From a virus, in the IMG/VR virus record IMGVR_UViG_3300024273_001131, positions 1-37,955 of that record: a stretch of 37,955 nt of DNA. One strand, 5' to 3'. The translations under genes and the position numbers were made by a program. Positions 17,375-37,955 of this stretch are shown here, in pieces. The notes beneath the pieces were generated by a model. That model saw only the letters and a list, made by a program, of their open reading frames with translations, had not been told where the DNA came from and made no database searches. Every line of letters starts with the position of its first letter. Positions within the stretch are counted from its first letter, which is position 1.

Positions 17375-19720
17375 ATGTCTACAAAAATGAAGGAATTATT
17401 TAAAACGGATCTAGATCCGAATTCATCTAAATGGTGGTCTACTGATAAGATAGATAAGATCAATTTGAATTTCAAACAATTTTCTGATGGTGGACAGGTT
17501 GGTCCTCGTGGATTTCAGGGTGCGTATGGAGTCGTTGGATACGCTGGAAATCAAGGTCCTCAAGGTCCTCAAGGTATTCGAGGTTTTCAAGGAGTTCAAG
17601 GAATTTCAGGAGAGAGAATTTGGAATTATTTAGAAGACACAGTTCATAGAGAATTATACGTGTTTCCAAAAGCAATTAGTACCACGCATGCCGTATCGAT
17701 GAGGATTGGTGAAAAAGATGGGGTTAGTCCGTACGGTGAACTGCTTCCTGAATCTGTCAAAGGACCTGCATTAACAATAGATAATAGAGATTCTGAATTT
17801 AGCCAACTTACAATTTCATGTAATGAATCTGATGTTAAAAAAAGAGCAGATTTTAAGTATACATATGTTGGCGGAACCAGTGTTATTAGAATAGGTAATT
17901 TAGTAAATAGTGAAGCGTTTATACTTGATTTTAAGTCTAATAGTACTGTATCAATATTAGATGCGATTCAATATTCTCCTGGAAAAATAAGTTTTGATAA
18001 GAATTCAATTTTTAATATTGGTCGTAACATTTTGTCTAAGTCAACTACAAGATATACAAAAGACGCTGGTATAAATAAAGTCTTGGTTTCTACTGATTCG
18101 CTCGGGTCTACCAGATGGGTTAGTAGATCATCTGTTTTTGGTAATTTTCCTATAGGTTCTATAATATCTATACAACATGCTGAATTTTTTAATGATTCTA
18201 ATTTTTATTTAGATGAAATCGCGTCTAACACAGGTGAGGTTCTATCTTTTAGATGGGGTAAAGGAAAACCAGGTACTCCTTATGAAGGATGGTATCTGTG
18301 TAACGGTGAAACTTGGGATTATTTATCGCTTATATCATATATTGTACCTAATTTAAATTCATTTAATTATGCAATAGATTCTAACGGAGATGCACAAGAT
18401 GCTGCGAATGGAGGAGATAATTCAATAGTAGTTGTTGGTGGATGGAATTCAAGATCAACATCAACAGATCTTGTAGGTTCTTATACATCTTCTCTATCGG
18501 AAGATGATACGTCTGACGTTTTAGTTGTTTTTGATAATGTTGGAAGTACTTGTGAAATTAAAAGAAACATACAAATAATATATCTAGAAGACACTAGGTT
18601 GTTGTGGGAAAACAATAATTCAATAATAGTTCCTACTACTCTGTATGACATAACACTAACACAAGCCAACACGACATCAACAAATGCATGTAGTAGTACA
18701 ATAAACACTCAGTTTAAAATAACGAATTCTAACCTGACATGGTCTGATTTCTTAGAAACTGGAAGTGGTTATGAATTATATAATGCTAGTGGGAATTCAT
18801 CCGCTACTCCTGGTTGGTATCAAAGAGAAGGTGTATCTAGATATTGGAATGGAACAGGTTTTACACAAAAAGTTACATGTGATATACAAAGATCTTTTGC
18901 GCATGGAGAAAACGTACTTCTATTTAATGGACCTGCAATACCATTTGAATTTTATAGCGCGGTGACAACTACGTATAATACTTTTTATATAAATGCAGTT
19001 TCATTTACAGACGCTACTATAATAAAACAATCAACTGGCGAAAATTGTGTACCTGGATGGTATCGAGAAGTTGCTGGTTTTGGTTTTGCAAATGGAAGTG
19101 TTGGTGGAACCAGAAGATATTGGAATGGTAACTCTTTTATTGGACTATCTATTGATCAGGATTACGTTAGAGCTGCTGATAATGGATCTTTTGGATTATA
19201 TTATGGAACTTCTACAACTGGTGTTTGTGATTCCGGTGTTTTACAAAAGACATATTATTCAAGTGATATATCTACATTTGCACCAAGTGGCGTGGTTGTT
19301 AATTCAACTCCATTAGTTCATGTTGGATATTCACAAGGAACTACTGGTCATTTTCCATTATCAAAAGTGAACACGCAGAACGGATTTGGAGTGTATTCTC
19401 CATATAGTAGAGCAAAGAGTGTTTCCGCGCCAATAGAATATGGTATAATTGATGCAACATCAGGTATTATATCTTCTGGGCAATTTACATGTCCTGTACC
19501 GGAACCGATAAACACATGTAAAGGATATACTCTTACTAATGGTTTTAATCAAGCCACTGCCTATGTTAAATACATAAAATGCGGTGAATCTACATATACT
19601 CAATTGGGTGTTCCTAGGGAATCAGAAAGACAGGTATGCACAGATGGAGATGCGCCAATTTACGTTAGCGGATCTACTATCACAATCACACCTAACAGTA
19701 ATTTCTGTCCTATTCCATAG
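17375..19720 (+). CDS. collagen-like tail fibre with tail-collar domain, cysteine-rich tip
   Basis: This protein is 781 aa. An N-terminal docking-like motif (KINLNFKQF, about 28-36) precedes about 13 Gly-X-Y triplets (43-79, including GPQGPQG), which form a collagen-type triple helix. A phage tail-collar-like domain starts near residue 259 (PIGSIISI), with GWYLCNGETW around 305-314 and VPNLNSFNY just after. The C-terminal third has a repeated PGWY...RYWNG module (around 480 and 565) and many cysteines, ending in a Cys-rich segment. T4 gp12 has a comparable collar. The next gene is a paralogue. The divergent C-terminus suggests the receptor-binding tip. Confidence 0.75.
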   Translation: MSTKMKELFKTDLDPNSSKWWSTDKIDKINLNFKQFSDGGQVGPRGFQGAYGVVGYAGNQGPQGPQGIRGFQGVQGISGERIWNYLEDTVHRELYVFPKAISTTHAVSMRIGEKDGVSPYGELLPESVKGPALTIDNRDSEFSQLTISCNESDVKKRADFKYTYVGGTSVIRIGNLVNSEAFILDFKSNSTVSILDAIQYSPGKISFDKNSIFNIGRNILSKSTTRYTKDAGINKVLVSTDSLGSTRWVSRSSVFGNFPIGSIISIQHAEFFNDSNFYLDEIASNTGEVLSFRWGKGKPGTPYEGWYLCNGETWDYLSLISYIVPNLNSFNYAIDSNGDAQDAANGGDNSIVVVGGWNSRSTSTDLVGSYTSSLSEDDTSDVLVVFDNVGSTCEIKRNIQIIYLEDTRLLWENNNSIIVPTTLYDITLTQANTTSTNACSSTINTQFKITNSNLTWSDFLETGSGYELYNASGNSSATPGWYQREGVSRYWNGTGFTQKVTCDIQRSFAHGENVLLFNGPAIPFEFYSAVTTTYNTFYINAVSFTDATIIKQSTGENCVPGWYREVAGFGFANGSVGGTRRYWNGNSFIGLSIDQDYVRAADNGSFGLYYGTSTTGVCDSGVLQKTYYSSDISTFAPSGVVVNSTPLVHVGYSQGTTGHFPLSKVNTQNGFGVYSPYSRAKSVSAPIEYGIIDATSGIISSGQFTCPVPEPINTCKGYTLTNGFNQATAYVKYIKCGESTYTQLGVPRESERQVCTDGDAPIYVSGSTITITPNSNFCPIP

Positions 19721-19745
19721 TCGATATTAAAAAGAATATATAGAA

Positions 19746-19753
19746 TATAAACA
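19746..19753 (+). promoter_or_regulatory. candidate late promoter-like element (TATAAACA)
   Basis: This is a near match to TATAAATA, ending 14 nt before the start at 19767, the same spacing as the candidate before the gp6-like gene. A second AT box, TATAAAAG, lies at 19758-19765. Confidence 0.25.
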
Positions 19754-19766
19754 ATATTATAAAAGA

Positions 19767-22070
19767 ATGGCAATTATCAACCTTAAAAATATAGAATTCA
19801 CCGATACTGATAATATCAAATTGGACAAAGTTAATTATAATTTTGATCAGTTGGTATCTAATGGCGGTGGTCCACAAGGACCTACTGGTAACGTTGGTCA
19901 GACCGGATTTCAGGGTGTAAATGGTTATCAAGGTCCTTTTGGAACGACTGGTTTTCAAGGTTTTCAAGGTGCTCAGGGAACTTCAGGTGGAGACGTATGG
20001 ATTGCACTCCAAGGTACAGGTACAGATTCGAGTGTTATTTTTCCAAAACATAATCTTATTAGTTTTCCTAATCCACCAATTGTTAGTGTTGGTTTTAAAG
20101 AGGATGACGCTGAATATTTTGATGTTAGTACATACTCTACTTTTGCTATTGCTCCATATCAATTTATAATAAATAGAAGTAGCAGTAGGAGTTCTAATTT
20201 AGCATTTAAAACTAGCGGAACAACAAATCTTTTTTTACATACGATTTCTTATAGTGACTCTCTAGCAAAAATGACAATGGGGTTTAGGGATCTAGTTGAC
20301 CCCAATACTAGAATAGAACTATGGGCATCTGAATTCAGATATGTCGATGTTTCAGGTACAGCACTGGTTACAGTTAACGCCACAAATATAACTTCTGATA
20401 TTCCGGCAGAATTTAATAATGATTTAACGATCCATGGAAATCTTACAATAGAAACGGAATTTGCGACAGGCCAGCCAGGATCTCCAGATACTAATAAAAT
20501 AGCAGTTTCTGCGGACGCTACCGGAAAAATAATATTTAAGAATATTGAAGAACTTGGAGGAACTGCACCGATTGGTACAATAATTTCTATGTTACCTTCT
20601 ATTTTTCAAGATAATGCTTTATTTTTAAGAACAGAGACAGTCACTTCTTCGGCATCATCCCCGATTGAAATCAGAGTTGGCTCTGGAATAGGTTTATATG
20701 AAGGATGGTATTTATGCAATGGAAAAACATGGACAAACGGGTTGACCGGAATTGACGAGGTTTCACATGAAGTTCCTGATTTAAATTCATTCTCATATTC
20801 AATAGAAGACGATACTACGACGACAGATCCAAGTAGTCAAGGTTCTGTTACTATAGCGAATAATAAGACGTCAATAATCGGAGGATCTGATATAGATATG
20901 ATTGCTGAATTTCAAACAGGAGTATACAATATATCAACTCCTTCCATAAGTACATCAGACTTAAATATAGATACTATTGTTGGTGGAAATACAACCATTG
21001 TCATTAAGAGATTACCTCAAATAATTTACTTAGGAATTGCAGATTTATATTGGTCTGACGCCGGAACTGATCAAACGCCACAAGCTACAGTTTCTTATAA
21101 TTTTGATGAAACATCAAATAATCCTGCAACTGATATACATACTGTTAGCCATACAGCAACACAAGGAAGCTCTACGTCTTTTAGTACAACTATAAATCCT
21201 CCATCTGGATATGTATATACTTCGGTGCCTACATTTACTGCGCCGGCTGGATTTTTTATAGCTTCAAGTCAGCTTTCAAATGGATCTATATTGTTAACTC
21301 TTAATATAACTACACAACCAGTAGATGGTGTTACTATTACTATAACGTATGATTTCACAAGTAATATTACTTTAAATACAGTTACTCATTCATATCTGTT
21401 ATTTGCTCTTAGTGATTCGTTGATATCTGATGATGGATCTGATGGAACGCAGAATACCACGGTTATCAAGACTCAAATTCCTGGATCTACATCAACATTT
21501 CAGGTTATAGTAACTGCTAACAGTGGCTATGAGTTTACGCAATCAGATATCGATAATATATCGTTAAATGATTCAGTTCCTGCTAGAATATCGCTGAGTA
21601 ATAAAGTTCTTGCAGTAGATTCTAAATCATTTACAGCTACAATAACTGATAGTGATTTTCCTGCAACAGAGGGCACTCAAACTCAAATATTATGGTCACC
21701 TTCTAGTGGGGCTACTCGAATATTAAAGTTCACTCTATTTAGCGAGTCAGGAACTTCTATATCGACTGGAAGATCATATGTGTATTTATTAACAGGTACT
21801 CCGGTTGTTGGTTCTGTAATCAATATGGGTATATATAGTACTACGATTTTATATACAATAAATAGTTCTAATATCGATACTGTCGGATCATCTTATGCTA
21901 CGTTCTTAAATAATGTAACAGCTGCTCAGTGGAAAGCAGCGGGTATATATTCATACACTCAAGGAAATCCTGTTGGTTTTGAGCCTACCGCTTCATATGA
22001 CAGTGTAAATGATAGATTAACATTTAATATGAACTGGCAAAATAGCATATCTCCACCATACGTGCAATAA
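19767..22070 (+). CDS. collagen-like tail fibre with tail-collar domain, Ig-like tip
   Basis: This 767-aa protein is a paralogue of the preceding fibre. A docking-like motif (KVNYNFDQL, 21-29) is followed by 13 Gly-X-Y triplets (35-74). The tail-collar-like domain starts near residue 268 (PIGTIISM), with GWYLCNGKTW near 313-322 and VPDLNSFSY just after. Both paralogues then share a strand ending in 'IIYL'. The C-terminal half has no cysteine cluster and instead carries Ser/Thr-rich beta-sandwich segments (around 435-530 and 540-630). The two fibres therefore share a shaft and collar but differ in the tip. Confidence 0.75.
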   Translation: MAIINLKNIEFTDTDNIKLDKVNYNFDQLVSNGGGPQGPTGNVGQTGFQGVNGYQGPFGTTGFQGFQGAQGTSGGDVWIALQGTGTDSSVIFPKHNLISFPNPPIVSVGFKEDDAEYFDVSTYSTFAIAPYQFIINRSSSRSSNLAFKTSGTTNLFLHTISYSDSLAKMTMGFRDLVDPNTRIELWASEFRYVDVSGTALVTVNATNITSDIPAEFNNDLTIHGNLTIETEFATGQPGSPDTNKIAVSADATGKIIFKNIEELGGTAPIGTIISMLPSIFQDNALFLRTETVTSSASSPIEIRVGSGIGLYEGWYLCNGKTWTNGLTGIDEVSHEVPDLNSFSYSIEDDTTTTDPSSQGSVTIANNKTSIIGGSDIDMIAEFQTGVYNISTPSISTSDLNIDTIVGGNTTIVIKRLPQIIYLGIADLYWSDAGTDQTPQATVSYNFDETSNNPATDIHTVSHTATQGSSTSFSTTINPPSGYVYTSVPTFTAPAGFFIASSQLSNGSILLTLNITTQPVDGVTITITYDFTSNITLNTVTHSYLLFALSDSLISDDGSDGTQNTTVIKTQIPGSTSTFQVIVTANSGYEFTQSDIDNISLNDSVPARISLSNKVLAVDSKSFTATITDSDFPATEGTQTQILWSPSSGATRILKFTLFSESGTSISTGRSYVYLLTGTPVVGSVINMGIYSTTILYTINSSNIDTVGSSYATFLNNVTAAQWKAAGIYSYTQGNPVGFEPTASYDSVNDRLTFNMNWQNSISPPYVQ

Positions 22071-22896: not shown

Positions 22897-24951
22897 ATGG
22901 CACAATCATCAAGATTCGCGAGATTAGACGAAGATATTCTTTTAGAATTTATATATCACGACCAGAACGTCGAACATGTAGATGAAGTCAAGATTGAGAA
23001 TGACGAGAATGGAAGTCAACTTAAATATTTAAATACGGTTGATAGTAATGATAATGCATCTAGATTTTTAATTCATGAATTAGGGGCTGATGTTGTTAAT
23101 TTTACAGTGGCTATTATTAATGGTTATGTTTCAATTAATAATTTTGCAAGTAGACAATTATTATTAAGAAATGGAAAGACATATAAATTTGATCTTTCAG
23201 ACCCAAGCATTGATAATCCTGCAGGTTTTGTTATACCTTTTGGAAATGGTACTTTAAACGGGACAATATATACATACACTCCATTAACTAATGGTAAGTA
23301 CCAATACACTTACGAAAATACTGCAACTACTAAATTTGTTGGAGGAGAAATAGAGGTTTCAAATAGAGCTAGTTCATTATATTCAGTTCCATTACAACAG
23401 ACTGGAAATGATATTAAAACTGCACCTGGAGAGGTTGGAAGATATTACGCAGTAAGCACTGATACAAGCAATAAATTTGCTCTTTTAAATAATTCATTAG
23501 ATTATTTAGATTCTACAAATTGGGAAGGAACAACATCTGCTGGATTAGAGGTTGTACCGACAGTGGACGTACAGGCCGTTTGGTATGATACAATAAGATT
23601 ACACTTACGAACAGGGTATTCTTTTAGTGCAAGGGGTTATGATGGTTTCTTGTTTCAAACAAAGATTAAAAAACAGTCGGGAATTTATAATTATTTAAAT
23701 TCTACGGTTTATTTAAATTCATCTAGTTTTGAATATCAAAACCCTCAGCCATTTGTTTTAGGTGATAGTTCATATTCTAAATTTATAGAGATAAAAGTTC
23801 CTTCACTAGTTCATATGGATGAAGTTGCAAGAAATAAAGAATTTGCTGATACTTTCTTTGGAACTATTGACCCTATAAATTCGTCTATTAACTATGAAAT
23901 TGATTTTAATTTAATAAGTCAGGTAGTAACTATCGGATCTTATGATTATATTGAAGTTGTTGAAGGTACGAATTTAATTATTGCACAAGAAGACGAATTT
24001 GCTGATATTTCTGCAAATGTAGAAGAGGCAAATGACGGAGACTATTTTAACATATATGGTACAAAGGACGGTTCTCAAAATGATTTTGCAACTTACATTA
24101 ATGATAGAACATCAGAATCAGGAGACGACATTATTGTTTTCCATGATATTGAAGTAAGCGAGCAAGTTGGTTTAGAATATTTAAGAACTTATTTAACTTC
24201 ATTCGTGCAGACTGTTAATTATGATCAGGCTTTATTATTTAGACCGGTTATTTTAAATGCTGGTGTTTCTAGTAATTTTTTAATTAGACACAACATGAGA
24301 ATATACAATGAAACTGATAATACTCAGATTATAAAATCGGCATCATTGATTCATAACAAACCTAAAACATATGGTAAAAAGTTAACAAAATTAAACATAA
24401 ATGCAGAAGCTAATGTAATTTACAATACACTACCAAATACTAGTGTTAATCGTGAATTAAATCAGTTTGTTAACTCAATAAGACCTAGTGTTGGAGAGAC
24501 TAAATATGTTTCAGTTGCTATTGATACAATTAATATAGTTTCGGCTAATACAAATATTACAGTAACAGGTACTGAATCAAATAATCTAAACGACATTATA
24601 TATTATGGAGAGGGCGAGGGAGTTATTAGTCTTTCTAAAGTTTCAGATAACTTTGTTAAATTTAACATTGCTCAAAAATCAGGAGAAACTGTTAATTCAG
24701 TAAGTTTAGTTAATGCTGAAAATATTATTTTGATTATTAAAAGTGGAGACATTGAACAACAAATATCGCACGATCCTAGTTTTCCAGATATTAACGCAGA
24801 AAAAGGAGAAGTATTTTTTAAGATTCCAAAAAGTACAGCAATTAGATTCGATCAGCAAGATACAAACATATCATCTGACAAATTTTATATTAACATAAAG
24901 AATGGAGAAACTGAATCTCTTCTTTATCACGGAAAAGTAAACATCATATAA
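22897..24951 (+). CDS. tail/baseplate structural protein, unknown function
   Basis: This 684-aa beta-rich protein starts at ATGGC after an A-rich leader. Residues about 85-110 contain GKTYKFDLSDPSIDNPAGF, resembling a cupredoxin-like strand pattern; the usual metal ligands were not established. The middle (about 370-470) is acidic. No enzyme motif was found. It overlaps the tail-tube-fold gene by one base (TAATG), suggesting coupled expression and a role near the tube or baseplate. Confidence 0.55.
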   Translation: MAQSSRFARLDEDILLEFIYHDQNVEHVDEVKIENDENGSQLKYLNTVDSNDNASRFLIHELGADVVNFTVAIINGYVSINNFASRQLLLRNGKTYKFDLSDPSIDNPAGFVIPFGNGTLNGTIYTYTPLTNGKYQYTYENTATTKFVGGEIEVSNRASSLYSVPLQQTGNDIKTAPGEVGRYYAVSTDTSNKFALLNNSLDYLDSTNWEGTTSAGLEVVPTVDVQAVWYDTIRLHLRTGYSFSARGYDGFLFQTKIKKQSGIYNYLNSTVYLNSSSFEYQNPQPFVLGDSSYSKFIEIKVPSLVHMDEVARNKEFADTFFGTIDPINSSINYEIDFNLISQVVTIGSYDYIEVVEGTNLIIAQEDEFADISANVEEANDGDYFNIYGTKDGSQNDFATYINDRTSESGDDIIVFHDIEVSEQVGLEYLRTYLTSFVQTVNYDQALLFRPVILNAGVSSNFLIRHNMRIYNETDNTQIIKSASLIHNKPKTYGKKLTKLNINAEANVIYNTLPNTSVNRELNQFVNSIRPSVGETKYVSVAIDTINIVSANTNITVTGTESNNLNDIIYYGEGEGVISLSKVSDNFVKFNIAQKSGETVNSVSLVNAENIILIIKSGDIEQQISHDPSFPDINAEKGEVFFKIPKSTAIRFDQQDTNISSDKFYINIKNGETESLLYHGKVNII

Positions 24952-25502
24952 TGATTTTAAACAATAGAAATAATTTATTTAATTTTAAGTTTCCTAGGAA
25001 TTTTATTCCATTGGAGGTTGCTGATAAATATCGAAAGTATTTGAATAGAATGCCTGGTAATATTATCACAGAACCGATTGACTTTATTAATTATTCAATA
25101 CAAGGAGTTGCGGTACCAGGAATATCATTTGATCCTATAGAGCAATCACCAAATGATGGAACTAAGAGCTATCATCGAGGTTCGGTTCCAATACAAAATA
25201 CTATTGATAGGACATTTGAAATAGAGATGCAATTACTGGATGGTTTTATTAACTACTGGATTATGCAAGACACTCTTTTGTATTATTATTCAAAGACTGT
25301 TAGAAAACCATTTCTTGATGATTTAAAGTTACAAATACTAGATGCCGAAGGAATTCATGTTATGAGCGCTGTTTTTGAAAAACCAATTATGAATTCAATA
25401 TCAGAACTTGAATTGAATATGAGTTCAAATATAGCAGAATTTAATACTTTTAAATTAAGCTTTTATTACAATAAATTTAATTTGATACTAGAAATAGATT
25501 AA
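24951..25502 (+). CDS. tail tube-fold protein (gp19-like)
   Basis: This 183-aa protein is close in size to T4 gp19 (163 aa). By eye it follows gp19: a strand ending GVAVPGISFDPIEQ (about 54-67, where gp19 has ATALPAGI), then DRTFEIEMQLLDG (about 88-100, where gp19 has DRTFDDWTVTVMND), and a C-terminal ELELNMSSNIAEFNTFKLSF (about 155-174, where gp19 has ELQLDWDSNNEIQTFEVTL). It carries an extra N-terminal segment of about 30 residues. It could be the tube subunit or a tube-fold baseplate cap such as gp48 or gp54; length favours the former. Confidence 0.6.
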   Translation: MILNNRNNLFNFKFPRNFIPLEVADKYRKYLNRMPGNIITEPIDFINYSIQGVAVPGISFDPIEQSPNDGTKSYHRGSVPIQNTIDRTFEIEMQLLDGFINYWIMQDTLLYYYSKTVRKPFLDDLKLQILDAEGIHVMSAVFEKPIMNSISELELNMSSNIAEFNTFKLSFYYNKFNLILEID

Positions 25503-25514
25503 GATATATACATT

Positions 25515-25883
25515 ATGAAAACATTTATAGATTACATATCAGAACAAGAATCAACTGATTTAGAATTAAAGATTCTTTTAGAATCGTTAGAATCAGAATG
25601 GAGCGATGAACTAGAAGCTAAAGTTGATATGGCTTTAGAATCTTTTATGTCGACTTACAAGAATGAAGATGGTTCTTATAATATCCATGAATTTAATGAA
25701 GAACTTACTAATGAAGGTATTTTAGGATCTATTTTTGGAGGTCTTGCTGGTTTTGCGCTAGGTAAAACTGTCGGTAAGACTGTTGCAAAGATCTTAGGTA
25801 TTGAAAAAGGAATCTTTTATGATATGTTAACTTCGAGACTTGTAGGTGCTGCCTTAGGATCTGCTCTCGCTAATAAAATATAA
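25515..25883 (+). CDS. small protein with capsid-targeting-like N-terminus and glycine-zipper C-terminus
   Basis: This protein is 122 aa. It opens MKTFIDYISEQ, closely resembling the capsid-targeting sequence of T4 internal proteins (MKTYxEFIxE type). Residues 12-65 are acidic and helical and include the candidate prohead-protease site LLE23|S24; LTNE67|G68 is a weaker candidate. The C-terminus (68-122) is hydrophobic and glycine-rich, with small residues spaced as in glycine zippers (GSIFGGLAGFALG, then VGAALGSALAN), able to form paired membrane helices. It directly abuts the RuvC-like gene. I infer an internal virion protein that may act on membranes; the function is unproven. Confidence 0.6.
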   Translation: MKTFIDYISEQESTDLELKILLESLESEWSDELEAKVDMALESFMSTYKNEDGSYNIHEFNEELTNEGILGSIFGGLAGFALGKTVGKTVAKILGIEKGIFYDMLTSRLVGAALGSALANKI

Positions 25884-26540
25884 ATGAATTTTATAACTAT
25901 CGACTTTTCGCTTAATTCCCCTGGGATTTGTATCTTTTCTGATAATAAGTATCATTTTATTGGGTATTTAAAACCAGGAACTGGAACTAAAGCCGAACAA
26001 AGAATTCAAGAAGAACTTAATATTCTTGAAGATACACAGATCTCCTTTCAACCCGACTGGACTAATACCGAGAACTATTCTAAAAGCGAGATGATTAAAG
26101 TACAGCGACACATGAAAACTGCTGATGACATTATTAATTTTATTTTAGATATAACAAAAACTACAAAAGATTACGTGGTTGCTTTTGAAGGCTCCTCTTA
26201 TGGTTCTTCTTCGGGAACTAATAATATAATTGACATGGCTGCGGGTGCTGCTATCCTTAAGATGGAAATGATGTCGAGGCTTGAAGTCTTGGACATGATG
26301 ACAATTGCACCATCAACCATTAAGAAGCATGCTGGAAAAGGAAACATGAAGAAGGATGAACTTTGGATTAAATTCTTGGAGAATGTTTTAAACGATAAAG
26401 AGCTTGAAAACTCGTCATTGCTTGCATTCTGTAAAAACAATATCGGAGAGGTTAAAAAAGTCCCTAAACCTATGGATGATTTAGTAGATGCATACTTCTT
26501 AAATCACTTAGCCAGAACCTTATTTTACCCCAAGGCTTAA
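25884..26540 (+). CDS. RuvC-like Holliday junction resolvase
   Basis: This 218-aa protein has an RNase H-like fold. Visible acidic residues match RuvC-type catalysis: Asp7 in ITIDFSLNSPG, Glu102 in VVAFEGSSYG, and Asp198/Asp199 and Asp202 in KPMDDLVDAYF. The segment APSTIKKHAGKGNMKKDE (142-159) matches the RuvC region before the last acidic motif. The enzyme would resolve branched DNA before packaging, the role played by endonuclease VII in T4. It starts immediately after the preceding stop. It lies upstream of gp32 but across a regulatory region, so it probably belongs to the tail-side transcript. Confidence 0.8.
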   Translation: MNFITIDFSLNSPGICIFSDNKYHFIGYLKPGTGTKAEQRIQEELNILEDTQISFQPDWTNTENYSKSEMIKVQRHMKTADDIINFILDITKTTKDYVVAFEGSSYGSSSGTNNIIDMAAGAAILKMEMMSRLEVLDMMTIAPSTIKKHAGKGNMKKDELWIKFLENVLNDKELENSSLLAFCKNNIGEVKKVPKPMDDLVDAYFLNHLARTLFYPKA

Positions 26541-31175: not shown

Positions 31176-32849
31176 ATGGCTGAAGTTAATAAAATTAATT
31201 CATTTAAATCATTTACTGAAATTAAAGCGCAAGGTAGCGCTTTAAAACTAAGAGAAGAGAATCAAACAAAAAGACAAGAATTAGCAAGTAATTTTACTTC
31301 AATTCTTGATGAAATGGGTATCACTAGTCTTGCTGAATTAGACGAAGAAACGCAAAAAACATTTATCTCTAAAGTATTAGGTAAAGAAGTTAATGAAGGA
31401 AACGCATTCGTATATGCTGCTTCTAAGGCAAAAGCTGCTGGAGAAACAGAATTTGAATTTAATGGTAAAACATATAAAGTAACTATTAAAGATACTGGTG
31501 TTAAAGAATCTGAAGTTGTTGAAGAAGGAAATGCATTCGGAGACGCTGTTAAAAAGGCAAAAGAAGCTGGAGAGAAAGAATTTGAATTTGAAGGAGAAAC
31601 CTTTAAAGTAGAAGAATCAGCAGTTACTGAAGCTAAATTCGTAAAAGAATTTAACAAAGAAGTCTTAGATGCTAAAACTGAAGCAGAGATTTTAGCAATT
31701 TATCCTAAAGCACAATTCTTTAAAGGTAAGCACTCTCACTTTTTTGGAGAACTTGACGAAAACTTATTCTTTAAAGCCTATTATACAAATGGCAGTGAAT
31801 TTAAAATTAATTCAGTATACTCTGAAAAAAATAAAGACTATGTTCACTTATATAATGAATCAGTAGTTACTGAAGAGGAGAATCCATGTTGGGATGATTA
31901 TAAAGTAGGAGATCCTAAAACAAAAATATCTTCTAGAAGCGGCAAAAGAGTTAATAACTGCGTTCCTAAAAATGAATCATTTGTTACCGAAGCCTCGATG
32001 TCTGATATTGATCAAATGGCACAAGATTCAAAAGATTTTAAAAGTTTTGTAAAAGAATTTACAAAAACACACCGTGACCTGTCTACCGCCGGAGAACCTG
32101 GACAATTTATGGACTGGTTACAATCGATATATGATGGAGCTAAAGAAAACATGGAAGAATCTGTTGTTACTGAAGGTAAGGCCGACTATATGGCTAAATA
32201 TAAAGATACTAATATTAATTTAAAGAAGGCATACAATCATCTTAATGATGAAGAATTAAACCAACTCTATCTTGAGATTGGCGAATTGGTATCAGGTAAT
32301 AAATTAAAAGTTAAGGATGTTACATTAGTATTTGAATCAGAACTCACCGAAGGTGCTAAAGAAGATGCATTATATAGAAAACAACAATTAGCTACATTAA
32401 AAAACGCTAAAAAAGATAAATCTAAAAAGATGACAATCGAATTAGATTGGATGCTAGACGAAGAGCCTTTATCAGGTAAACAATTCGTGTCTGATATGAA
32501 AAAGTTTTCAATTTCTGTAGGAGAACCTACAAAGTCAAACGACGAATACAGCGGTAGCGAGTATGTTGTTAAATTTACAGGTTCTAGAGATAGCTTAAAG
32601 AAACTTATTGATAAATATTATGGCGGAGATTCTGAAACATATCTTGATGAAGCAAAAAAGGTTTTAGTTAACGAAGCTGAAATAAAATCTGATGATGAAT
32701 TTAAAGAGTATGCATTCACTGTGTTAAAAAACGCATTTGAATCAGATTTCGATGAAGCAAAAGCAGAAGAAATAGTTTCTGGAATACTAGCTAAAGTTGA
32801 TGGAGATTACGGAGCAGCAGTGGGCATGCTAACAAGTTCATTAGCATAA
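31176..32849 (+). CDS. putative prohead core/internal-head polyprotein with repeated protease sites
   Basis: This protein is 557 aa with no single recognised fold. It contains a regular series of T4-prohead-protease-type sites, [VLI]-x-E before G/A: VNE74|G, VEE117|G, VTE152|A, VTE272|A, VTE333|G, LTE392|G, VNE500|A. There is also VTE233|E, and a weaker site at LDE492|A. Cutting would give pieces of about 74, 43, 35, 81, 39, 61, 59, 108 and 57 aa. Pieces 2 and 3 are duplicates (GNAF...AGE.EFEF). Piece 5 has a CWDDYK...NCVP motif. The N-terminus has a targeting-like SFKSFTEI. It is highly charged. It starts the head-cargo cluster and ends at a terminator. Its identity as a scaffold or internal protein precursor is inferred. 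Confidence 0.65.
   Translation: MAEVNKINSFKSFTEIKAQGSALKLREENQTKRQELASNFTSILDEMGITSLAELDEETQKTFISKVLGKEVNEGNAFVYAASKAKAAGETEFEFNGKTYKVTIKDTGVKESEVVEEGNAFGDAVKKAKEAGEKEFEFEGETFKVEESAVTEAKFVKEFNKEVLDAKTEAEILAIYPKAQFFKGKHSHFFGELDENLFFKAYYTNGSEFKINSVYSEKNKDYVHLYNESVVTEEENPCWDDYKVGDPKTKISSRSGKRVNNCVPKNESFVTEASMSDIDQMAQDSKDFKSFVKEFTKTHRDLSTAGEPGQFMDWLQSIYDGAKENMEESVVTEGKADYMAKYKDTNINLKKAYNHLNDEELNQLYLEIGELVSGNKLKVKDVTLVFESELTEGAKEDALYRKQQLATLKNAKKDKSKKMTIELDWMLDEEPLSGKQFVSDMKKFSISVGEPTKSNDEYSGSEYVVKFTGSRDSLKKLIDKYYGGDSETYLDEAKKVLVNEAEIKSDDEFKEYAFTVLKNAFESDFDEAKAEEIVSGILAKVDGDYGAAVGMLTSSLA
31398..31631 (+). repeat. tandem duplication of a protease-bounded module
   Basis: Copy 1 (31398-31526, residues 75-117) and copy 2 (31527-31631, residues 118-152) both begin GNAF, keep AKAAGE/AKEAGE and EFEF, and end at an xxE site. 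The duplication unit coincides with the predicted cleavage unit. Confidence 0.7.
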
Positions 32850-32897: not shown

Positions 32898-32932
32898 GTT
32901 TATATTTGCCTATAATTAAAATAATAAAGAAC

Positions 32933-34222
32933 ATGAAAAAAAGAATACTAGGTTTCTCAGACTTCATATCAGAAAGAGAAAACAGATTAATGATTGAAAC
33001 ATTAATTCTTGAAGGTGGTGCAGCAGGACACATGCAGCATCCATTCGATGATGCTTCATTAACATTCGGAGACTTTAAAGAAATGATAAATGCAGGACTT
33101 CAAGGTAGTTTAGATTTTGAAGAAGAGACCACAGAAAAAACAGATGGTCAAAATGTATTTGCAACAGTAGTAGATGGCCAAGTTAAATTTGCTAGAAATA
33201 AAACTGAATTAAAATATCCAATGGATCTTTCATCATTTAAATCTAAATTCGAAGGACACCCTAGTAAACTTGTACAAGATACATTTCAATTTGCAGCAGA
33301 AGATTTAGCAAAGCAATTATCTAAATTATCAAGCAGTGATCAGTTAAAATATTTTAATAATGGAACTTCATTCATGAACATGGAGTTAATATATTCTAAA
33401 AATCCAAATGTAATTTATTACGATAGAGATATTATACAATTCCATGGAATTAAACACACAGATGGCGAAGGTAATATTATTGGAGAAGATACAAAACCTG
33501 CAAAAGAAATTGCAGCAATTTTAAAAAGCCTAAAAGCTGACATAGGAAACACATTTACTGTAATACCTCCACAGGTAATTCAAATGCATAAAGATCTTAA
33601 TTTTGATGAAAACAAATCTAAGTTTATTAAAAAAGTAGAAGATCTTAAAAAGACATTTAATTTAACAGATGCTGATGAAGTTTCAAGATATCATGAGATG
33701 TGGTGGAGAGATCAAATTGAAAAGAATTTTCCAGATTTATCCCAAACGTTTAAAGAAGGTTTGTTATTAAGATGGGCGTATGACGACAAGAAAACTCTTA
33801 ACATAAGAGCACTTGATAAAGAACTTGGAAAGGATAAAGCAGACTTGATTAAGAAATTTGATAAAGAGGATGTTAAAAAGAAATATAAAGAAAACATTAG
33901 ACCATTCGAAGACCTTTTCTTAGAGTTAGGAAGTGTTATCTTAAAGAATGCAAGTAATTTTGTTGCTGCAAATCCTGCTGCTGAAATGCAACGTTTACAT
34001 ACTCAAATTAGAACAGAAGCTGACAAAATTAAGCTAAACGGAAGTACTGAACAGATATTAAAAGTACAATCAGAGCTTGAGCGTTTAAATAGAATTGGCG
34101 GTATTGAATCAATTATTCCAACTGAAGGAATAGTGTTCACATACAAAGGAAAGATATTTAAATTAACTGGAACCTTTGCAGCAATTAATCAATTAATGGG
34201 AATCATAAAATACGGAAGATAA
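32933..34222 (+). CDS. ligase-like nucleotidyltransferase with capsid-targeting-like N-terminus
   Basis: This protein is 429 aa from ATG at 32933; an upstream TTG at 32906 in the same frame overlaps the region just past the terminator and is rejected. Motifs of the covalent nucleotidyltransferase (DNA/RNA ligase) superfamily are visible: EKTDG with candidate adenylated Lys69 (68-72), FMNMELIY with Glu151, EGIVF (398-402) as motif IV, and KIFKLTG (407-413) as motif V. The N-terminus GFSDFISE (7-14) resembles the T4 capsid-targeting sequence, and ILE27|G28 is a candidate prohead-protease site, so the mature enzyme would start at Gly28. An RNA ligase is more likely than a replicative DNA ligase, but the substrate cannot be read from sequence. 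Confidence 0.65.
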   Translation: MKKRILGFSDFISERENRLMIETLILEGGAAGHMQHPFDDASLTFGDFKEMINAGLQGSLDFEEETTEKTDGQNVFATVVDGQVKFARNKTELKYPMDLSSFKSKFEGHPSKLVQDTFQFAAEDLAKQLSKLSSSDQLKYFNNGTSFMNMELIYSKNPNVIYYDRDIIQFHGIKHTDGEGNIIGEDTKPAKEIAAILKSLKADIGNTFTVIPPQVIQMHKDLNFDENKSKFIKKVEDLKKTFNLTDADEVSRYHEMWWRDQIEKNFPDLSQTFKEGLLLRWAYDDKKTLNIRALDKELGKDKADLIKKFDKEDVKKKYKENIRPFEDLFLELGSVILKNASNFVAANPAAEMQRLHTQIRTEADKIKLNGSTEQILKVQSELERLNRIGGIESIIPTEGIVFTYKGKIFKLTGTFAAINQLMGIIKYGR

Positions 34223-34224
34223 TA

Positions 34225-36099
34225 ATGGCACTACAAAAACTTAGAGAATATTTTCAAGCAGCTAATTCAAATGAATTTAATGATTTATTAAAGAATAGAG
34301 TATTAGTCACTGAAAAAATAGCTGCACCGTCACTACATATCCAGAGAGAAAATACAGGCTTTAAATACTATAAGACAGGAAGCAACTCTCCGGTGAATAT
34401 AGTAGATAGGACTATTATTTCATTATATGAAATTGCAATAAATCACATGCAAAGTCTTTCTTTGGATAAAAAAAATCAATTGCCAATTGATTGGAGATTT
34501 GGCTTTGAGTATTTGCCAGAACTTAATGTTTCCAAAATAGAATATGCCAAAGTACCTGAAAATAATTTAATCTTAACACATATCCAACAGATTGGAGAAA
34601 ATGGTAAAGTTAAGAAAACCATTAACGATCCAATTATTTTAAACAAGTGGAAAAATGTACTAGAAGTCCAAGGACCTAGTATAATATTTGATGGGTATTT
34701 AAATGAGTTGCAGAAAACAGAGTTGTTAGAGTTGTTAGAAATGAACGACAAGTCGTTTGGAGACAGCTTCGACTATTTAGTAGAAACTGAAGATAAAACA
34801 TCATTTACTAAAAAAATTATTAAACTATTTAATCCAAATGAAAGAGCCTCAATACTTCACGAGGATCTAGAGCACGAAATTGATGGATTAATTATTAATT
34901 TTATTGATGGAAAAACTACTTCATCTTTTAAATTAGAAGACTTTAATAGATCTAAAATTAATGAAACAACTTCAGCAAGTCACATGTATCAAATTACAAT
35001 TGCTGATTTGTTAGAGTATTTAGTATCTTATGATTTAGGAGAAATAGTACTTGAAGAAGAAAACGCAGGAAACAGATACATCGAATTAATGTCGGTTTTA
35101 TTTAATGGGTACATTGAAAAGAATGCAACTAAATTTGTTGGAGTTAATTTTGAAAATGCGGAATTTTCTGAGTCTAATTCTTTTAAATTAAATCCTAAGT
35201 ATATTACCAATGAAAAGACTTTAAAACATATCCAAAATGACGTGTTATCAGAACTTTTTAAAATAACACTAAGTTCATTTAGAAAGAAGAGAAATAAAAC
35301 AACTGACATAATCAATCAAGACATGTTAGATAGGATGAATGAAATCATTGAGAATATCGACACTAAGATATTTGTTGAAAATACTGATGAAAATGCCATA
35401 TATGATTATCAAAACTTTATCATGCATAATAAAATTAAAAGCTCTGTTAATTTAAACGAGGCACTTAAAGTAAATCATACAGAACAGGGTAAAGAATTAG
35501 TAAATATGTTTGTTGGAAGATTTCAACCATTCACATTAGGACATGCAAAGGTATTAGAAACAATTTACAAAGAGAACGGATATCCAGTGATTGTATTTTT
35601 AGTAAAATCAAAAACTGTTAAAAAAGGAGAAGAGTTTAGCAAACCATATGATGAGGCAACTCAGATTAAAATGTTTAATGAAGTAAAGAAACAATATAAA
35701 TTCTTAAAAGAAATTAAAATAATTCCAACTGGAGCTATTGATACGATGTTTAATGAACTTAGACCTAAATACGAACCTGTTCTTTGGGGAACCGGAAGTG
35801 ATAGATTAAAAAGTTATGGTTTTCAAGTAAACAATGATTCTTATAGAGACCAATTAAATGCAAGAGCTGATTTTGGACTTTTTGAAATACCAAGAACCGA
35901 TGATAATATATCAGCAACTCAGGTTAGAAATGCCTTATTAGATGGTGATGAAAGGACATTTCAACAAATGACACCGAAGGCAATTCACGGAATGTACAAA
36001 GAATTAAAATCAAAATTAGAAGATGCAGTCGGAGTCACTTCAGAATCTCTAGTGATTGAAGGTTTAATGACGTTCGAACAATTCATGAAAAAACTATAA
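34225..36099 (+). CDS. ligase-like domain fused to nucleotide adenylyl/cytidylyltransferase, C-terminal tag
   Basis: This protein is 624 aa. Residues 1-250 look ligase-like: EKIAAPSLHI with Lys31 (the usual KxDG is degenerate), RFGFEYLP with Glu95, DGLIINF (220-226), and a FKLEDF motif (235-240). Residues about 425-600 are a nucleotidyltransferase: GRFQPFTLGH (431-440, a TxGH-type motif) and ISATQVR (562-568, ISxTxxR), as in NMN adenylyltransferases and cytidylyltransferases. A site LNE412|A lies between the two domains, and VIE612|G precedes a C-terminal tag MTFEQFMKKL. Cleavage would yield two separate enzymes plus the tag. It starts 2 nt after the preceding ligase-like gene. The substrate (NMN or another) is unknown. 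Confidence 0.65.
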   Translation: MALQKLREYFQAANSNEFNDLLKNRVLVTEKIAAPSLHIQRENTGFKYYKTGSNSPVNIVDRTIISLYEIAINHMQSLSLDKKNQLPIDWRFGFEYLPELNVSKIEYAKVPENNLILTHIQQIGENGKVKKTINDPIILNKWKNVLEVQGPSIIFDGYLNELQKTELLELLEMNDKSFGDSFDYLVETEDKTSFTKKIIKLFNPNERASILHEDLEHEIDGLIINFIDGKTTSSFKLEDFNRSKINETTSASHMYQITIADLLEYLVSYDLGEIVLEEENAGNRYIELMSVLFNGYIEKNATKFVGVNFENAEFSESNSFKLNPKYITNEKTLKHIQNDVLSELFKITLSSFRKKRNKTTDIINQDMLDRMNEIIENIDTKIFVENTDENAIYDYQNFIMHNKIKSSVNLNEALKVNHTEQGKELVNMFVGRFQPFTLGHAKVLETIYKENGYPVIVFLVKSKTVKKGEEFSKPYDEATQIKMFNEVKKQYKFLKEIKIIPTGAIDTMFNELRPKYEPVLWGTGSDRLKSYGFQVNNDSYRDQLNARADFGLFEIPRTDDNISATQVRNALLDGDERTFQQMTPKAIHGMYKELKSKLEDAVGVTSESLVIEGLMTFEQFMKKL

Positions 36100-36134: not shown

Positions 36135-37955
36135 ATGGAATCTAAAAAATCATTTGATCAGTATGTTAAAGAATCATTAGCAATGCTAAATGAGGCTAAA
36201 AAAGAAGCTGGTCTTTCAAAGGAAGAAACTTTAGTAGTTGCACAAAAATTTGCAGATGCAATGTCTAAAGCAGACAACGCAAAAGTTACTGTTAATAAAA
36301 GAACATTAGAGGAAGATTCATTTGACCTTGATGTTAATGGAGAAGAATATGACGGAGGATCTTATATAATTTACCAAAACGGTGATGTGATGAATGCTGC
36401 TGTTCCAGGTAATCCAATATACGGTAAGAAAAATGATACTGTAGATACTATTGCCAAGAATATGAAAAAAATGATTGGTGAATCTTTTGTTAAAGAAGGA
36501 GTTGACATGGAAGAATTACAAGATACATTAAAAAGAGTTAAAAAAGAAAATCCTGGTAAAAAAATAGGATACGCTTTTATCAAAGATGCATCAAAAGGAT
36601 ATAAGATTTCAATTAACGGAGAATATGTTAATGAATCATCTGATACTGAATCATTATATAATGTAATTGACAAAAAATCAGGTGAAGTAATGAGCGATGA
36701 ACCTCTTAAAAAAGATTTAGCAAAGAAATTTGCTGCTAAAAAAACAGGATGGATTATTCAAGTTAATGAATCGCTAGTTACTGAAGGTAGAGTTACTCTT
36801 AAAAGAAGATACACTGAAAATCATCCAGCAGTTACCGTTGGTAAAAATGCTACTATTAGAAATAAAGTACTAGAAGCAATAAAAGACGGAAAAATATCAC
36901 AAGAACAATTTGATAATATTGTTTCTGAATTATCAAATGATTCTAAAAGATGGACTAAAAGTAATTCAAAATATTTTAGTGTTTCTGAAGAAGGAGTTTC
37001 TTTATCAAAATTCGGAAGAAAGGTATTAAATAGTGTTACTGTCAACGAAGCAACTACAAAAAATCCAGAAATATGGGTTCCTGGTGGATTTGACAAAGAA
37101 GTAAGCAAAATACCAAACCAAAAAATAGATGTTGCAACTATTACTAAAATAGCAAAAAAATATGATGTCGATATCGATGATGCAATTGCATACGTTGAAT
37201 ATGGATGGGATATTGACTTATCAGAAAACACAAACACAAATATGAAAACAAAATTTATTTATGAATCATTTGGAGAATTTGTAAACTCCTTAAATGAATC
37301 TACTTTAAACGAGGCTTTTGCTTCTGCAAAGCTTGCAAGCATTTTAACTGGAGCTAATAAAATGGACAAGGATCTTCCATCTGCGTTTTATAGCATGTCA
37401 AAATTAGCACTTGATAAAATTCAAGATATTGATATTATTGAAATGACACCAGATCAAGCAAAGAAGGAGAAAAGAGCAAGCGCAGTTTACCTTTATTTCA
37501 CTACAAATGAAAAGGAAAACCCGTATGCAGGAAAAAGTTCTTATAATAAACATACAATCCCATCGAATACATTATTAGCAATCACAGATGGTTCAAATGA
37601 GTGGATGGCAACTGAATGGCAAAGATCTTATACTGGAGACAAGAAATCAATAAGAACTTTAAAAACTACAAAAAGAGATGATTCTGACGGTATTGATAAA
37701 TCAGGTGCAAGCAATCAATACGGTTCAGGTATTTCAAGCATGAAACAAGTTGTTGATTTAGCAGACAGAGCATACTGTTTAGATTTAACAGTTCTTAAAG
37801 CAAGATATTCTACACTAGCACAAAAAGATGAAAGATCTGCTGCTAAAAAAGGAGCAACAGCATTCATGAATGACAAAGAATTTAAAGCTGAAAATAAGAA
37901 AAGATATAATGACATTCTAGCTTCTAAAGCCGCTACAATGCCAATGGAGATCGGA
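36135..37955 (+). CDS. second putative head polyprotein (partial, runs off the window)
   Basis: An open frame from ATG at 36135 reads 607 codons with no stop to the window edge, so it is 3'-truncated. It begins with a targeting-like motif (SFDQYVKES, 6-14) and LNE20|A. More [VL]-x-E sites follow: VKE121|G, VNE167|S, VNE212|S, VTE217|G, VNE305|A, LNE388|S, LNE393|A. Met370 begins a second targeting-like stretch (MKTKFIYESFGEFV) after an A-rich context, so this may be a fusion of two internal proteins or contain an internal start at 37242. It is charged, Lys- and Glu-rich, with no enzymatic motif recognised. Role inferred as prohead core or cargo. Confidence 0.65.
   Translation, partial: MESKKSFDQYVKESLAMLNEAKKEAGLSKEETLVVAQKFADAMSKADNAKVTVNKRTLEEDSFDLDVNGEEYDGGSYIIYQNGDVMNAAVPGNPIYGKKNDTVDTIAKNMKKMIGESFVKEGVDMEELQDTLKRVKKENPGKKIGYAFIKDASKGYKISINGEYVNESSDTESLYNVIDKKSGEVMSDEPLKKDLAKKFAAKKTGWIIQVNESLVTEGRVTLKRRYTENHPAVTVGKNATIRNKVLEAIKDGKISQEQFDNIVSELSNDSKRWTKSNSKYFSVSEEGVSLSKFGRKVLNSVTVNEATTKNPEIWVPGGFDKEVSKIPNQKIDVATITKIAKKYDVDIDDAIAYVEYGWDIDLSENTNTNMKTKFIYESFGEFVNSLNESTLNEAFASAKLASILTGANKMDKDLPSAFYSMSKLALDKIQDIDIIEMTPDQAKKEKRASAVYLYFTTNEKENPYAGKSSYNKHTIPSNTLLAITDGSNEWMATEWQRSYTGDKKSIRTLKTTKRDDSDGIDKSGASNQYGSGISSMKQVVDLADRAYCLDLTVLKARYSTLAQKDERSAAKKGATAFMNDKEFKAENKKRYNDILASKAATMPMEIG

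Follow-up and report, generated by a model that had tools for sequence, protein, structure and literature searches.

This locus raises the question of what a phage protein does that begins like the internal head proteins of T4 and ends in a glycine zipper. The gene lies in a viral DNA of 37,955 nucleotides, the whole of which is called the window here, and a preliminary description of the window placed the reading frame exactly, at 25515-25883; it is on the plus strand and has 122 codons for amino acids. We propose, with a rough probability of 0.45, that the product is a T4-type internal head protein whose zipper payload is ejected with the DNA and acts on the membrane, easing passage of the DNA. 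Judging from the sequence features listed below, targeting to the head and processing there are likely and we hold them with good confidence, whereas ejection and membrane action are more tentative and fall somewhat short of an even chance.

25515-25883, plus strand: whole gene of the tagged glycine-zipper protein, 122 amino acids; an open reading frame with at least 593 relatives in IMG/VR and under purifying selection.
25515-25544, plus strand: T4-type capsid targeting sequence MKTFIDYISE, residues 1-10, conserved as a tag and matching the T4 determinants 4, 7, 8 and 10 (PMC9026906); predicted cleavage after E10.
25545-25715, plus strand: acidic middle, residues 11-67; net charge -15 over residues 1-67, with a family mean of -14.
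25575-25586, plus strand: LLE/S, residues 21-24 (the slash marks the bond to be cut), putative second prohead protease site; positions 21, 23 and 24 are conserved.
25707-25718, plus strand: TNE/G, residues 65-68, possible third cleavage; E67 and G68 are invariant (70/70).
25716-25880, plus strand: cationic glycine zipper, residues 68-122; five-glycine ladder in 69 of 70 relatives, mean charge +4.2.

Targeting in T4 is determined mainly by residues 4 and 7 and processing by residues 8 and 10 (PMC9026906); in the T4 record IPII and IPIII start with MKTYQEFIAE and IPI with MKTFKEF. MKTFIDYISE carries F4, Y7, I8 and E10 and is, as the preliminary description had it, the closest match in the window to the T4 tag. 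It is also the sole exact T4 register among the motif-bearing reading frames, two more of which carry a looser form (GFSDFISE at 32906-34222 and SFDQYVKE in the frame starting at 36135). Of 71 distinct members of the family, 67 have Phe at position 4, 62 have Tyr at position 7, 66 have Ile, Leu or Met at position 8 and 60 have Glu at position 10. The second gp21-type site, [LI]xE23/[SG], fits the T4 rule and is equally well kept, with Leu or Ile at 21 in 67/71, Glu at 23 in 66/71 and Ser or Gly at 24 in 65/71; redundant propeptide cleavage sites have been discussed for giant phages (PMC5694885; PMC9026906). At residues 65-68, the 68 members that could be classified read TNE/G (64), LNE/G (2), INE/G (1) or VDE/G (1), the P3 residue being Thr in the core clade and Leu, Ile or Val in the outgroups. 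As a P3 Thr differs from the T4 motif, cleavage between E67 and G68 is uncertain in the core clade.

The machinery that would read such a tag is present in the relatives. Of 11 long related contigs, 10 encode a protease of the S77 (gp21) family and 9 a gp23-like capsid protein; the window, itself a fragment, lacks the protease gene. An L-x-E near residue 45, common to the capsid proteins of the clade, would fit gp21-type cleavage. Lak-C1 carries its zipper gene about 4 kb ahead of a prohead-protease-like gene, and an S77 match occurs in a Lak relative. In three relatives (L152:1015, L154 on the minus strand, and L156:1002) a small acidic protein with the tag-like start MKTIKTFEQFINSS adjoins the S77 protease and is possibly a prohead core protein.

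If the tag serves this purpose, it should mark other proteins as well. In a 236-kb relative, 26 of 295 reading frames carry [FY]xx[FYL][VILM]xE within their first 25 residues, against 1.8 in shuffled sequences (at most 8 over 500 shuffles); segments of 25 residues taken elsewhere give 0 to 3. The strict T4 register is found in 2 of the 295 versus 0.05 expected, one of the two being the homologue of the zipper gene. Many of the tagged frames of this contig (G001, L166-L177) read MKHIKLFEQFVNE or alike and most belong to no known family; chance may account for at least one, a hydrophobic protein of 84 amino acids. The final 100 bases of the contig are found again near position 1998, but an ungapped comparison of its 2.1-kb ends shows that they differ, and for that reason its completeness is not claimed. 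Three other relatives, all partial genomes, have 5, 2 and 4 tagged frames versus 0.4-0.5 expected, of which the counts of 2 and 4 are weak alone. These numbers suggest that the genome of the 236-kb phage encodes about two dozen head-stored proteins, each marked by a T4-style head tag. Were the tags so used, they would make it simple to predict which proteins of uncultured jumbo phages are stored in the head and injected.

The tag also recurs next to the zipper gene on proteins with other bodies. Four loci (L009, L010, L014 and L015) encode, between the tail tube and the zipper gene, a 101-amino-acid protein that starts with MKTFDDYINEG, has no match in Pfam or NCBIfam and shows by eye no likeness to the zipper protein except for the tag. 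In L147 and L148 a run of genes starting with MKSLxxYLxEA or similar directly follows the zipper gene, and in LR756500 the product of the gene after it is tag-like and rich in Gly and Lys. The preliminary description had set our gene next to tail genes and apart from the cargo cluster; this is so in the window, where cargo-like genes run from 31176 onward, but does not extend to distant relatives, in which tagged genes adjoin it (L147/L148, L010). Taken together, the tag register, the gp21-type sites, the S77 protease, the gp23-like major capsid protein, the genome-wide tagged set and the tag on an unrelated neighbour bear out, by comparison, the capsid targeting first suggested for this protein, whose probable place of storage is the head of the virus.

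Several other products of the window deserve mention. The large tagged proteins of 31176-32849 and 36135-37955 contain repeated VTE or VNE places, at which the prohead protease possibly cuts them into several pieces. The protein of 34225-36099 has a domain resembling nicotinamide-nucleotide adenylyltransferase (TIGR01527, E 2e-7, below the cut-off) and ends in SLVIEGLMTFEQFMKKL, where a V-I-E/G site is followed by what could be a C-terminal tag. Two long reading frames within 17375-22070 have collagen-like GxxGxxG stretches near their N-termini and are probably tail-fibre or appendage proteins.

A large set of presumed cargo sharing one tag also brings to mind injected anti-host proteins, and T4 IPI itself is injected and inhibits a restriction enzyme (PMC3012670). 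The mature zipper protein would then hit a host target, in the membrane or in defence, and not serve DNA entry. We consider this unlikely, as its very high conservation and fixed position are unlike those of fast-changing defence proteins. A search with the family alignment found relatives encoded in at least 593 stretches of IMG/VR, and their carriers are T4-like jumbo phages that form a widespread group. The conserved neighbours of the gene in the window are:

24951-25502, plus strand: tail tube gene, upstream neighbour (PHROG 45, E 2e-6).
25884-26540, plus strand: RuvC-like gene, downstream neighbour (PHROG 159, E 3e-14).

Of the 135 loci long enough to judge, 129 have a tail-tube gene no more than 150 bp upstream of the zipper gene, and a RuvC-like gene follows the zipper gene in 130 of 134. 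Using the tail-tube protein as bait avoids the circularity of a locus set based on the zipper, and among loci fetched in this way the zipper gene was present in 78 of the 78 with enough sequence, directly after the tail tube in 76 and behind inserted genes in 2; most of these loci are fairly close to the window (tail tube at least 78% identity) and there is much overlap with the first set, so that the test covers the window's clade. Such synteny would suit a tail component or a tail assembly helper. The head tag and protease sites, the RuvC-like nuclease encoded next and the Lak copy ahead of a prohead-protease-like gene, however, make a tail role very unlikely.

Further away, LR756500, a 462-kb huge phage, encodes a distant homologue behind its tail tube (54% over the matched part), and Lak megaphages encode, likewise behind the tail tube, a homologue of the zipper half only (38%), which lacks the glycine ladder and has a charge of only +1 in the zipper part. 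No relatives were found in T4, in the two cyanophages S-PM2 and P-SSM2, in pT24 or in three phages of 635-735 kb; the distant L147 zipper protein had no match in named phage records, and a collection of 84,980 genomes gave no confirmed relative, nor was there a confirmed match in any bacterial genome. A weak match to PHROG 767 ("cAMP phosphodiesterase") in 12 of 23 members was put down to chance, with none in the two cyanophages or pT24.

Near-universal conservation suits a structural role as well. The main rival to our proposal is that the protein belongs to the prohead core or the inner head, the tag bringing it to the core and the zipper serving self-assembly, for instance at the portal vertex, with no role at the host membrane. 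Its presence in all 78 tail-tube loci and its conservation above that of the T4 internal proteins favor this reading, as does the tagged, probably core-type protein that adjoins the S77 protease in relatives. So does the N-terminal stretch NVNGMGEVSLP...GSGDVP of the zipper protein in L147 (4665-5315) and L148 (4536-5192), which resembles the capsid-protein segment NVNGMGAISFP...GSGDKP located just past the putative cleavage point (pattern NxxGMGxVxxP...GSGDxP). On the other hand, gp21-type sites are absent from the zipper in 65 of 68 family members, whereas T4 core proteins are cut small, but Glu residues are also few in the zipper. We regard a core or structural role as a real possibility, if on balance a doubtful one.

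The C-terminal 55 residues, from residue 68 GILGSIFGGLAGFALGKTVGKTVAKILGIEKGIFYDMLTSRLVGAALGSALANKI, are a genuine glycine zipper, as had been surmised, with the ladder G71-G75-G79-G83-G87. Of 70 distinct relatives, 69 keep GxxxGxxxGxxxGxxxG, which occurs in only 1 of the 295 reading frames of the 236-kb relative; with the tag conserved in 71 relatives, the combination of tag and zipper proposed for a search in related phages is indeed a family trait. Within the zipper region the mean differences at codon positions 1, 2 and 3 are 0.229, 0.062 and 0.445 (62 distinct full-length genes), indicating purifying selection at the protein level. The description of this end as hydrophobic holds in part. 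The usual Kyte-Doolittle cut-off for a single-pass transmembrane segment is about 1.6 over 19 residues, and the best 19-residue mean of the zipper is 1.37, marginal for a transmembrane helix; the net charge is +4 from G68 onward. The same value bears on a holin or antiholin, which a small, Gly-rich protein with partly hydrophobic helices might otherwise bring to mind. With no convincing transmembrane segment, an acidic N-terminal half bearing head-tag features, no lysis family matched by the window protein in Pfam, PHROGs or NCBIfam, and neighbours that are tail and DNA genes, a lysis function is the least likely of the explanations considered. Marginal hydropathy also favors the structural role described above. 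Two AlphaFold runs gave models of low confidence (mean pLDDT 55.8 and 58.5), and a search against solved structures returned no real match (best E 0.87).

For the internal head protein that we favor, the course of events would be as follows. The N-terminal tag would bind the growing prohead core, and a gp21-like prohead protease would cut it off behind E10, E23 or both, and perhaps behind E67. The glycine-zipper protein, now mature, would be kept among the packaged DNA and leave the head with it upon infection, so that it may be shot into the cell together with the DNA, and its cationic helices would interact among themselves and with the inner membrane, making DNA passage easier. We propose the membrane role because of the glycine zipper and its positive charge, and by analogy with Tde1, a T6SS effector whose GxxxG motif is required for permeabilizing the target membrane (PMC10240207). 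The preliminary description had already thought of membrane insertion and help in DNA entry, for which the zipper sequence and charge speak, and against which stand the marginal hydropathy and poor structure prediction; the P3 Thr and the Lak homologue without the ladder likewise weigh against a head-stored, membrane-acting protein. A possible consequence of cleavage between E67 and G68 is separation of the cationic zipper from its acidic propiece. It is conceivable, though improbable, that the propiece (mean -14) masks the cationic peptide (+4) during synthesis, that the prohead protease frees the peptide at this invariant bond after the peptide has been enclosed in the head, and that the peptide, fired into the membrane of the host, is a dedicated pore for DNA entry, conserved from this clade towards the Lak megaphages.

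How the DNA of contractile-tailed phages crosses the inner membrane is still poorly understood, and a near-universal, small, head-tagged zipper protein in abundant jumbo phages offers a concrete candidate for DNA entry. The tag mechanism is already known; the new part is the conserved zipper payload beneath it, a combination of which we found no earlier description in open-licence papers.

By its sequence features the protein is a putative member of the T4-type internal head proteins. It shares with IPI, IPII and IPIII the tag register (aromatic residues at 4 and 7, Ile, Leu or Met at 8, Glu at 10), the gp21-type sites after Glu and phages that carry gp21- and gp23-family genes, yet its body is unrelated, consisting of an acidic middle and a zipper, and it has a second conserved site at E23. 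The T4 internal proteins are variable and poorly conserved (PMC9026906), unlike the near-universal, highly conserved zipper protein. The inner-head proteins of phiKZ and SPN3US similarly have propeptides with several sites after Glu and form large head-stored sets, but their proteases cut at S-x-E or A-x-E, whereas the tags described here are short, T4-style and fit L/I/V-x-E. The Pfam glycine zippers PF13488, PF05433 and PF13441 have the same GxxxG ladder and match most members weakly (best E 1.8e-4), the window protein staying below the curated cut-offs (15.2 versus 24.2 bits; 12.6 versus 25); they usually occur with a signal peptide or in a lipoprotein context, unlike the zipper protein. 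Tde1 has GxxxG in a protein delivered to another bacterium, where it is proposed to permeabilize the cytoplasmic membrane (PMC10240207), but it uses a different delivery machine and, with no homology shown, serves as an analogy only. As a purely functional comparison, gp7, gp16 and gp20 of P22 and similar proteins of short-tailed phages are stored in the head and proposed to form the path of the DNA through the envelope (PMC8402733).
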